From a virus, in IMG/VR virus record IMGVR_UViG_3300042888_000352, positions 1-33,691 of that record: a stretch of DNA of 33,691 nt. One strand, written 5' to 3'. The notes under the pieces were generated by a model. The model did no database searches and had not been told where the DNA came from. It worked only from the letters and a program-made list of their open reading frames with translations. Both the position numbers and the translations under genes were made by a program. Of the stretch, positions 28,101 to 33,691 are shown in pieces. Each line of letters starts with the position of its first letter. Positions within the stretch are counted from its first letter, which is position 1.

Positions 28101-29499
28101 AAAAAATCCCTGCCACGGCTTTGATTCGCGCCCGTGCGATTTCTACATATTCCGCTTCACGCTCGATACCGATGAACCGAAAGCCCTCCAGCACAGCAGC
28201 CTTGCCGGTACTGCCGCTGCCCATGAACGGGTCCAGCACCACACCGCCGGGCGGCGTCACCAGGCGGCACAGGTAGCGCATTAGGTCGGTGGGTTTGACG
28301 GTTGGGTGGACGTTCTCCGCGCCACGGTCGGACTTGCTGGCCTTGGCGCAGTAGAAGAAACGGGCGGCGCTGCCGGTGTCGCCGCGTGGCGTGGTGGCCG
28401 GCCTTCCATTGAACTGGCCGTACACGGCATTTGTTTTGCTGCTCGGCTCTTCGCCTGTGCCCGCGCCTTGCTGGCCTTTGGCTTGCGGAAACGCCTCCAA
28501 AACTTCCTCGCTGCCATCGTGGATCAGGTTGGCGGGCCAGCGGCCGGGGGGAGTAGGTCCAGTGCCAACGGTTTGAATCTCTGCCTGCCCGCCAAGTCGA
28601 TGGGTATAAAGCGCGTTTGGGTGCCCATCAGCAGGCTTGGCACGCGAAGACGGCCAAGTCTCCACCGTTTCAACCACCCTGCACGCATCTAAATTCAGCG
28701 CCCCAGTGCCGTGCGCCATCACGTTGTCGGCCACGGTTCCAATCAGCGGCTTGCGCGCCACGGTGATCGGCTCCAGCGCGGGCTTTAGGGCCGTGCCCCA
28801 GCCTTGCCATTGGCGGGCGGCTTCGGTGGCGGGGGCGGTGATGTCCAGCGTGGTGGCGCTGCGGTCATTGTCTTGTCCAGGCGCGACAGCCAGCATGTTT
28901 CCGCGCTGCTGGCCGACCACCTCGCGTTCGGCACCAATTCGGTCAACCAGTGCGTCATATTTCCTGTCGCAGCCCAGCCAGTTTTTAAGAATCTCCCAGT
29001 GCGCGGGCGTGGGTGGCAGCGCGTTGTTTCTGTCCTGCGCTTCCCAATGATTGCAGATAGCCGCCGCGTTGAATCGCGCATTCACCTCTTTTCGGCTGAT
29101 GCCAAGTTTTTCGCGGCACTCGCGGATATGCCTACCCAATTCATAACGGCCCTCAAACTCGCGGCCGTTTAACTTGTCCACAGCCTTGCTCACATCCAGC
29201 GACTTCGGAAACCCAGACCCATAAACCCACGCGATCATGTCGCGGATTTCGAACCCGGCATCCTCGATGCGAACAGCCATGCGGTGCTGGGTCCGCGTGC
29301 CAGCGAACGCCAGCAGGTGGCCGCCGGGCTTCAGGACGCGCAGGCACTCGGCCCACAGTTCCACGCTGGGAACGTCGTAGTCCCACTTTTTGCCCATGAA
29401 CGACAGGCCATAGGGCGGGTCAGTGACGACCGCGTCCACGCTGTTGTCGGGCATGCCGCGCAGCACCTCCAGGCAGTTGCCGTGTTTCAAGTCAATCAT
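28081..29499 (-). CDS. DNA N6-adenine-type methyltransferase with inserted HTH-like segment
   Basis: This 472-aa enzyme moves a methyl group from S-adenosylmethionine to DNA. The catalytic DPPY is at 27-30 and the SAM-binding DPFMGSGSTG at 423-432; DPPY before FxGxG marks the beta class, and DPPY suggests adenine N6. The target-recognition part (about 110-400) includes a Cro/XRE-like stretch at about 120-143 (ELGRHIRECREKLGISRKEV). Start: ATG 29499, an 8-nt overlap with terS. It sits between terS and terL, an unusual place. Likely protects phage DNA from host restriction or marks packaging sites. Confidence 0.9.
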   Translation of the reverse strand: MIDLKHGNCLEVLRGMPDNSVDAVVTDPPYGLSFMGKKWDYDVPSVELWAECLRVLKPGGHLLAFAGTRTQHRMAVRIEDAGFEIRDMIAWVYGSGFPKSLDVSKAVDKLNGREFEGRYELGRHIRECREKLGISRKEVNARFNAAAICNHWEAQDRNNALPPTPAHWEILKNWLGCDRKYDALVDRIGAEREVVGQQRGNMLAVAPGQDNDRSATTLDITAPATEAARQWQGWGTALKPALEPITVARKPLIGTVADNVMAHGTGALNLDACRVVETVETWPSSRAKPADGHPNALYTHRLGGQAEIQTVGTGPTPPGRWPANLIHDGSEEVLEAFPQAKGQQGAGTGEEPSSKTNAVYGQFNGRPATTPRGDTGSAARFFYCAKASKSDRGAENVHPTVKPTDLMRYLCRLVTPPGGVVLDPFMGSGSTGKAAVLEGFRFIGIEREAEYVEIARARIKAVAGIFYATDAS

Positions 29500-29983
29500 T
29501 GGAATCCTTCGCCGCCATGATCTGCGCCAGAACATCCGTGGACAACTTGCTGGCATCAATAGTCTGCTTGACCTCAAGCGGATTTTCTTTGTCGCCAGCC
29601 AGCTCCAGCCGGTCGCCGTACTTTTTCGGGGCCAACTTGGAAAGCAACCATTTGCGGCTGTCCACTTGCAGTTTGCGCTGTTGGATGGCTTGCCAGTCGC
29701 GCTTCCCGTCTCCGGTCTCGGGGACTTCGCTGTCAGATAGCTCCATGACCTCGCTGGCGATGCGCTCAATCAAGTCCTCGCGTGCGTGCGCGTAGCTTTC
29801 AGCAAGTTTCGCGTCAGAATCAACCCAAAGGTTAAAAGTGCTTTGCGGAACTCCAGCCGCTTGGCAAGCCTTGAAAGCGCTCAGGCCGTCTCTCATGCCT
29901 TGCAGGACTGCTTGGCAGATGGCCTCCTTGTCTCGCTCTGGCTTTGTGGGCTTTTCAGGCTTTGCCGCCTTCTTTGTGGCCAT
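29492..29983 (-). CDS. terS: Terminase small subunit, Sf6 gp1-like
   Basis: This 163-aa protein recognises phage DNA and starts packaging. After a Lys/Pro-rich start it has a helix-turn-helix (GLSAFKACQAAGVPQSTFNL) and the conserved helical part (EDLIERIASEVMELSDSEVP, QQRKLQVDSRKWLLSKLAPK) ending KYGDRLE, as in the Sf6 terminase small subunit. It starts inside the end of the secreted microprotein (TGATG) and ends in an 8-nt overlap with the methyltransferase. Confidence 0.9.
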   Translation of the reverse strand: MATKKAAKPEKPTKPERDKEAICQAVLQGMRDGLSAFKACQAAGVPQSTFNLWVDSDAKLAESYAHAREDLIERIASEVMELSDSEVPETGDGKRDWQAIQQRKLQVDSRKWLLSKLAPKKYGDRLELAGDKENPLEVKQTIDASKLSTDVLAQIMAAKDSND

Positions 29984-30108
29984 CAGAAGCCGCCGTTTCG
30001 AGTGGTGGTGCAGGTGACGCTGCCGTCATAGTTTCGTACGCAGCGTGTGACGGTGTTGGCTTCGGCTGCGAATGACAGCAGCATGGCGATTGTGAATAGG
30101 GTTTTCAC
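29983..30108 (-). CDS. Secreted microprotein (41 aa, GTG start) before terS
   Basis: The reading is MKTLFTIAMLLSFAAEANTV followed by a short tail with two Cys (RCVRNYDGSVTC). It has a basic residue, a hydrophobic core and a likely signal-peptidase site after AEA, so the mature form would be about 20-25 residues, possibly with a disulfide. GGAGAAACCC precedes the GTG. The stop overlaps the terS ATG (TGATG), so terS translation is probably coupled to it. No lipobox, so it is not a typical outer-membrane spanin. No family recognised. Confidence 0.75.
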   Translation of the reverse strand: MKTLFTIAMLLSFAAEANTVTRCVRNYDGSVTCTTTRNGGF

Positions 30109-30128: not shown

Positions 30129-30402
30129 CCCCGTCTCTCCGGGGTGTCTCGCGGTTTGCCTGCCCGGGTCCCACGTTGACCCTTGGTATCGTCCCGACTT
30201 CCGCCACAGGCCCGTACACCCAGCGTTACGCTATGCCGGGTCGCGTGATGGCACTTGTACTTCGAACCATCACGGCTGCGGATTGTCGGATGTTCCCGGC
30301 GTTTCAGCCACCCTATCCTTTCGGAGCTGTGTACGAAACAGCCAATCCTCATGCGTAATAGTGCCGGTTACGTCTCCGGCGTCTGCGCTCGCAGACCGTA
30401 GT
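30129..30402 (-). ncRNA. Candidate structured RNA / late leader
   Basis: Read on the minus strand, this is packed with helices. They are a 6-bp hairpin (30396-30391/30386-30381), an adjacent 5-bp one (30380-30376/30367-30363), a 5-bp hairpin (30342-30338/30330-30326), a UCC-GAAA-GGA tetraloop at 30325-30316, an 8-bp stem CGTGATGG/CCATCACG (30274-30267/30251-30244), GGGTC/GACCC (30182-30178/30170-30166) and CCCCG/CGGGG (30144-30140/30133-30129). Long-range helices 30300-30295/30240-30235, 30335-30329/30219-30213 and 30348-30343/30285-30280 are also possible; some cross, so pseudoknots or switching are likely. A promoter begins it. No known RNA family was recognised. Confidence 0.65.
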
Positions 30403-30408
30403 GTTGTC

Positions 30409-30438
30409 ATTGTACTCCACTGCAAGATTTTGTTGCAA
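30409..30438 (-). promoter_or_regulatory. Sigma70-like promoter, probable late promoter
   Basis: On the minus strand TTGCAA (30438-30433) and TACAAT (30414-30409) are 18 bp apart. The start should be near 30402, six bases before the first hairpin of the structured region. It lies just after the RusA stop codon, the place where lambdoid phages have their late promoter pR'. Confidence 0.7.
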
Positions 30439-33606: not shown

Positions 33607-33691
33607 TGTCAAACACCCCATCAAAAATGGCGCGGGAGGCTGCAGCGTGTTTGTGCTCGTTTCGCCCTTGTGCGCTGCGCGTGGCGGTCTG
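33565..33691. repeat. Terminal direct repeat, right copy (circular closure)
   Basis: This is the second copy of the 127-base exact repeat at 1-127. Removing one copy gives a 33,564-bp circle. P22-like phages package by headful and have circularly permuted DNA, which would also give a circular assembly. Confidence 0.95.
33599..33691 (-). CDS. Partial duplicate of the DUF1376 replication gene (3' end)
   Basis: This is the last 30 codons and stop of the gene at 35-727, seen here again because of the terminal repeat. It is cut by the window end, not by a real truncation. Confidence 0.9.
   Translation of the reverse strand, partial: QTATRSAQGRNEHKHAAASRAIFDGVFDNE

Follow-up and report, generated by a model that had tools for sequence, protein, structure and literature searches.

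The leader that precedes the terminase genes of virus record IMGVR_UViG_3300042888_000352 opens with 40 nt that, judged by sequence, belong to a large phage RNA family, apparently undescribed and represented in well over a hundred phage records. The family exists, and its pseudoknot and first hairpin are conserved by compensatory change. No published description of it, including by its loop letters, was found in the open-access literature searched, outside which most subscription papers lie. The window, as we call the whole 33,691-base record, ends at position 33691, and the early region lies outside it. The genes and leader elements mapped below are all on its minus strand.

A covarying pseudoknot module

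The module comprises two adjacent hairpins and a 5′ flank. In the window, hairpin 1 (GUCUGC-GAGC-GCAGAC, 30381–30396) is variable in sequence among members and shows strong covariation. Hairpin 2 (GCCGG-AGACGUAA-CCGGC, 30363–30380), supported by scans and covariation, carries in its loop the 3′ strand of the pseudoknot. The 5′ strand is the flanking ACG (30397–30399), the CG of which pairs with the CG of the hairpin 2 loop (30372–30371), again with covariation.

A BLAST search of the gap that holds the leader returned nothing from plasmids; from phages it returned only a match of 22 nt (E 0.5), to Enterobacter phage Arya and Escherichia phage Bas97, which resembled chance yet led to the family. 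Viral contigs contain the 18-mer core GCCGGAGACGTAACCGGC, which forms one hairpin of the window leader, in at least 119 exact copies. In another listing, of 120 matches, some are coding and lack hairpin 1, and these were left out of the member count. Across 257 Gb of bacterial and archaeal genomes, 72 exact stretches of the core were found; the hairpin 1 context is present in only part of them, largely in Pseudomonas, Aeromonas and related hosts. In phages, a hairpin whose sequence varies abuts the 5′ side of the core, and NCG stands before that hairpin. The family consensus is N-C-X-[hairpin 1]-GCCGG-A-NN-X′-GUAA-CCGGC-A, in which CX pairs with X′G to form the pseudoknot.

In a structure-aware alignment of 46 sites, the covariation of the two hairpins was 0.298, against 0.099 ± 0.012 when shuffled, and five of the six pairs of hairpin 1 carry double changes. 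Divergent copies with the loop ACAAGTAA have the flank TCT in place of ACG, so pairing between flank and loop was suspected and we scanned for non-canonical loops with GCCGGAHNNGTAACCGGC. X and X′ are Watson-Crick in 66 of the 79 non-canonical-loop sites with a flush hairpin 1, a set that includes related phages and whose sites are thus not independent; 10000 shuffles averaged 36.6 with a maximum of 49, and none reached the observed count. Pairing of this type was absent at other positions of the hairpin 2 loop among the same 79 sites. The loop and flank combinations CGT–NCG, AGT–NCT, GGT–NCC and TGT–NCA cover all four Watson-Crick possibilities, in different phages. Alignment A4 was selected for the X/X′ pair and is not independent evidence of that pair.

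The stem of hairpin 2 also varies. A scan with the alternative stem GCTGGANNCGTAACCAGC recovered 100 distinct sites, 65 of which have a flush hairpin 1, and NCG precedes 54 of these 65, compared with 1.5% of random positions. Among the stems GCCGG, GCTGG and GCGGG the variation is compensatory, with hairpin 1 and NCG retained.

A covariance model of the family, R1, finds a single copy of the element in almost every one of 50 whole records and one or two copies per genome in 18 element-bearing bacterial genomes, and it also detects divergent tandem copies. Escherichia coli genomes searched for the element type of Yersinia phage PY54 gave no match. At Rfam 15 gathering scores, the window and 20 member loci together returned only int-alpA, tRNA and permuted tmRNA, all outside the element, and permissive filters applied to two members (L291 and L176) yielded chance-level matches only. 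A covariance-model match in loci L012 and L013 (E 0.003) lay inside coding sequence and was discarded.

The leader and promoter of the terminase operon

The minus strand of the window carries genes of the nin region (NinB, a RecA-dependent nuclease and RusA), followed by the gap (30438–30123, between rusA and a small secreted-peptide ORF), the small ORF, terS and terL. This order agrees with the initial annotation, made from the sequence alone, which had placed a promoter-driven leader at the junction of the nin-region and terminase genes. The small ORF (29983–30108) begins with GTG behind an AAGGAG and encodes 41 aa with a signal-like N terminus (MKTLFTIAMLLSFAAEA...); it is kept in relatives and has no Pfam match. 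Its product is MKTLFTIA...TRNGGF; the ORF overlaps the start of terS and is conserved across terS relatives. A domain search identifies the next gene (29492–29983) as an Sf6-type terminase small subunit. Within the gap, Rfam 15 at gathering scores and at E ≤ 10 gave chance-level matches only, and ARAGORN together with Rfam found neither tRNA nor tmRNA, in keeping with the initial annotation, which had recognised no known family. The sole Rfam match of the window is an int-alpA RNA (RF02996; 750–817, minus strand, 38.7 bits).

The sigma-70-type promoter proposed at the head of the gap (TTGCAA-18-TACAAT, 30409–30438) held up well: it is the only match of 9/12 within 2.5 kb, where 0.3 are expected, and the same promoter is kept in relatives. 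From the spacing to the −10 element the start of transcription is predicted at 30402, which would place the pseudoknot module about 3 nt into the transcript. We compared the gap with 80 viral loci that encode a terS homologue, and DNA comparison revealed no copy of the insert in any of them. Six of these relatives (L003, L004, L005, L029, L034 and L036) keep the promoter and the small ORF, the promoter directly abuts the ribosome-binding site and the RNA is absent; in the window, about 285 nt separate the two. In L005 both flanks match the window at about 90%, with the insert absent, and L048 has the same promoter followed by a different structured-looking leader. Because the promoter is kept in relatives without the RNA, the RNA is a cassette placed between promoter and ribosome-binding site. 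On this comparative reading, the promoter is real and is predicted to drive a transcript of small ORF, terS and terL, with the RNA gained and lost as a cassette in its 5′ untranslated region.

An inverted repeat, TGCAA-n7-TTGCA, lies in the −35 element and spacer of the promoter, and its arms change in parallel in relatives (in L042, TACAA/TTGTA and CTACAA/TTGTAG); it is probably an operator for a regulator of the terminase operon. The tetranucleotide ACTA is found at 30399, 30362 and 30128, immediately ahead of the module, behind hairpin 2 and behind the GARAGA hairpin described below, and may mark the cassette borders or be there by chance.

The fold predicted for the whole leader has a z-score of −1.44, and 16 of 200 shuffles were equally stable. 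It is thus no better than chance, so that folding energy alone gives no reason for interest and the more than six packed helices first described are not evidence by themselves. A search for compensatory changes in other phages, the check proposed with that description, found covariation behind the 5′ hairpins, the pseudoknot and a long helix. Two adjacent hairpins at the 5′ end and one long helix are thus real. The long-range crossing helices were not confirmed as drawn, the covariation-backed crossing pair being the short one between 30398–30397 and 30372–30371. A GNRA hairpin, UCC-GAAA-GGA, is present in the window as annotated and is unsupported by relatives.

The long helix, P3, follows hairpin 2 directly and pairs 30362–30343 with 30285–30266 around a CAU/AGY internal loop. 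Its outer 5′ strand, ACTATTACG (30354–30362), was found by a helix scan and in L291 and pairs with 30274–30266; the segment 30343–30353, also from the helix scan, holds the CAT of the internal loop (30353–30351) and the inner 5′ strand (30350–30343). The 3′ side (30266–30285) is made up of the inner strand (30285–30278), AGC (30277–30275) and the outer strand CGTGATGGT (30274–30266), and the distal part (30286–30342) is variable. In the close relative L291, the same promoter, both hairpins and P3 are present, with the pairing-compatible change of TTACG/CGTGA to TCACG/CGTGA. Ten CAU/AGY helices lie within 800 nt of family members, against none in 2.7 Mb elsewhere in the same loci, and the ten differ greatly in their paired sequences. 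Sequences that resemble tRNAs, with good acceptor and T arms and odd middles, occur in L038 (2260–2810), L155 (2368–2750, in the part that corresponds to distal P3) and L173 (3600–3960, minus strand), and some of them are framed by a CAU/AGY helix.

The leader had also been proposed to adopt two states. In the window only, 30274–30267 of P3 can alternatively pair with 30251–30244, and this local 8-bp hairpin is a genuine competitor of the long helix: the model gives −107.8 kcal/mol with the hairpin and −104.6 kcal/mol with the helix, a difference of 3.2 kcal/mol. A conserved switch is unsupported: in L291 the long helix persists and the sequence that would pair in the local hairpin is gone. 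We conclude that conservation lies with the long helix and that the switch is unproven.

Beyond its first 40 nt the leader is a mosaic. Its unconserved 3′ part (about 30145–30265) has no counterpart in L291, the nearest element-bearing relative. Close to the end lies a second leader hairpin of GARAGA type, (G)AGACA-CCCCG-GAGAGA-CGGGG (30129–30150). The underlying motif, TGACA-stem-GARAGA-stem, lies at 30144–30129 in the window; near family members its density is about 60 times that found elsewhere. In Stenotrophomonas phage BUCT708, whose PL-side leader is BLAST-homologous, a GARAGA hairpin occupies precisely the place of the pseudoknot module in its relative L429, one replacing the other. Another recurrent leader hairpin, GGTGAATGCGCAGRCTGATGCGC, was noticed in phage untranslated regions near the family (L514 3639–3665, L038, L150 and L199). 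In PL-side leaders of Stenotrophomonas and Aeromonas phages (L515 2600–3280 and L516 2500–2720), small hairpins with GACCA(A) loops form arrays together with GARAGA hairpins.

A peptide encoded in the gap can be rejected, and a hidden coding region as the explanation of the leader is extremely improbable. A frame of 108 aa starts at an ATG at 30352 of the window, and L291 too is open from that ATG. The frame has no Pfam match and no Shine-Dalgarno sequence. Apart from MRIG and SRDG, which conserved helix strands encode, the two products have little in common, and the BLASTP E-value of 0.04 concerns the window/L291 pair alone. Across the family, the variable length of hairpin 1 breaks the frames.

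Genomic setting and candidate functions

Family members occupy diverse places in phage genomes. In Aeromonas phage phiARM81mr a BLAST-homologous leader stands in the cI-side operon, before exonuclease VIII and RecT. In PY54 the element lies 13 nt after the Dam methylase gene and about 310 nt before the lysis genes, with an intrinsic terminator between, and in Arya and Bas97 it follows the integrase gene; a terminator comes 185 nt later, and no gene in the same direction lies behind the element. Among 95 downstream proteins, RecE/RecT-type recombination proteins are the commonest, and some are terminases or minor tail proteins; the genes directly downstream of members are functionally diverse and have nothing in common. 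In three loci (L103, L193 and L199) tRNAs follow directly. A CsrA-like gene was observed directly behind the module in one phage (L196, 12608–12900) and in the genome of Aliidiomarina maris (L324).

Covariation alone cannot separate RNA from single-stranded DNA, and the element could be under selection as DNA, as a hairpin that serves the priming of replication, recombination or the exchange of modules. Its usual occurrence in one copy per phage and its gain, loss and replacement at homologous places would fit such a role. However, the long ORFs downstream are codirectional in a ratio of 98:42 and paired positions hold more G-U than A-C (18 to 6), which together give modest support for action as an RNA of the transcribed strand, and the element adjoins genes of unrelated function. 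We consider a DNA element improbable.

The places of the element, in leaders of PL type, in late leaders and ahead of untranslated stretches with tRNAs, suggest an action on elongating RNA polymerase. As our best guess by analogy, held tentatively and at clearly less than even confidence, the element would be a cis-acting element of the nascent RNA, put-like in role, that acts on transcription. The late leader opens about 3 nt after its predicted start with the compact pseudoknot module, followed by the long CAU/AGY helix. In such a mechanism the element would work in cis on the nascent transcript, where the folded RNA may bind RNA polymerase as it transcribes or an elongation factor of the host, so that the polymerase would pass pauses or Rho-dependent termination. 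Early (recombination) and late (lysis, terminase) operons, as well as untranslated stretches such as tRNA genes, would benefit. The put-like idea was already among the initial suggestions, and it is the position of the element that continues to speak for it. Against it, intrinsic terminators are not enriched within 500 nt downstream (13 of 146 members, background 6.9%), a promoter directly upstream is rare (3 of 146), close relatives lack the element, and the placement in Arya and Bas97, ahead of a terminator and no codirectional gene, is unfavourable.

Since a promoter stands directly upstream in so few members, most are intercistronic or far from a promoter. A role in mRNA stability, processing or translation is nearly as likely as the put-like one, although unlikely in its own right. 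Here the pseudoknot would shield a 5′ end or an intercistronic cut end against nucleases, mark a cut through which differential expression is set, or aid translation of the gene that follows. Many members lie 10–50 nt before a Shine-Dalgarno sequence and start codon, between codirectional genes; what lies downstream is diverse, as such a role would allow, and the window element would form the extreme 5′ end of its transcript. Often, however, long untranslated stretches or tRNAs follow the element rather than a gene.

With downstream genes this diverse, a generic expression element is a better fit than a ligand-specific riboswitch. A regulatory switch or operator, in which the pseudoknot, bound by a small ligand or by a protein of the phage or its host, would turn the downstream operon on or off, has a low probability: the compact core with its strongly conserved GG-A, GUAA and C/G does resemble a binding site, but those genes have no common function, the loop of hairpin 1 varies freely and no shared regulator gene was found beside the element.

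The two further roles suggested at the outset, a trans-acting small RNA and a packaging RNA of the window phage, are very unlikely. The window element does adjoin terminase genes, and in Arya and Bas97 a terminator closes the element and the roughly 190 nt that go with it, and no gene lies beyond. But no terminator was found on the minus strand of the gap, where the Shine-Dalgarno sequence of the next gene follows directly, which argues against a trans-acting RNA here, and most members stand beside recombination or other genes rather than packaging genes, which argues against a packaging RNA.

A broader reading, to which we give somewhat less than an even chance, is that the family is a widespread and hitherto unrecognised class of phage RNA and that temperate phages shuffle a vocabulary of leader RNAs, namely the pseudoknot of about 40 nt, the interchangeable GARAGA hairpin and the CAU/AGY helix, with a mechanism that would be neither put, nut, Q nor riboswitch. 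The shuffled parts would stand before early and late operons, tRNAs and single genes.

A structured RNA in well over a hundred distinct phage records, its pseudoknot borne out by all four Watson-Crick exchanges, would be a sizeable addition to the regulatory RNAs of phages. It yields a testable prediction on the way long operons are driven in phages that lack an obvious N or Q protein, equips annotators of phage intergenic regions with a covariance model, and might serve as a small, portable element that acts on transcription or mRNA.

Comparison with known phage RNAs

Like GOLLD, ROOL and other large phage non-coding RNAs, the family is phage-borne, present in single copy and sometimes found beside tRNAs; its core, however, measures only about 40 nt and has no Rfam match. 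The int-alpA RNA (RF02996) is likewise a phage-associated RNA family, with its copy elsewhere in the window, and differs from the family in sequence, structure and place. Unlike a pRNA-type packaging RNA, the family is not linked to packaging genes: terminases are a minority of the genes downstream of its members. The window element recalls the lambda late leader (PR′-Q) and nut in its place at the early/late junction, after the promoter and before the late operon, and differs from them in that the element itself is a conserved RNA fold.

The closest analogy for the proposed function is with phage HK022, whose putL and putR sites lie downstream of early phage promoters and confer a processive antitermination by RNA only that suppresses downstream terminators. 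The put RNA binds the β′ zinc-binding domain of RNA polymerase. In anatomy, put is an RNA of two stem-loops that acts on the elongating polymerase (PMC9378689). The family shares with it two adjacent stem-loops in phage operon leaders, hairpins 1 and 2, which covary, and the PL-side and late-leader positions common to several members. The two differ in the terminators downstream, which are not enriched behind family members even though PY54 has one, and the putL/putR region of HK022 shows no sequence similarity to the family and no match to models R1 and R2. In the family, unlike put, a pseudoknot joins the 5′ flank to the loop of the second hairpin.
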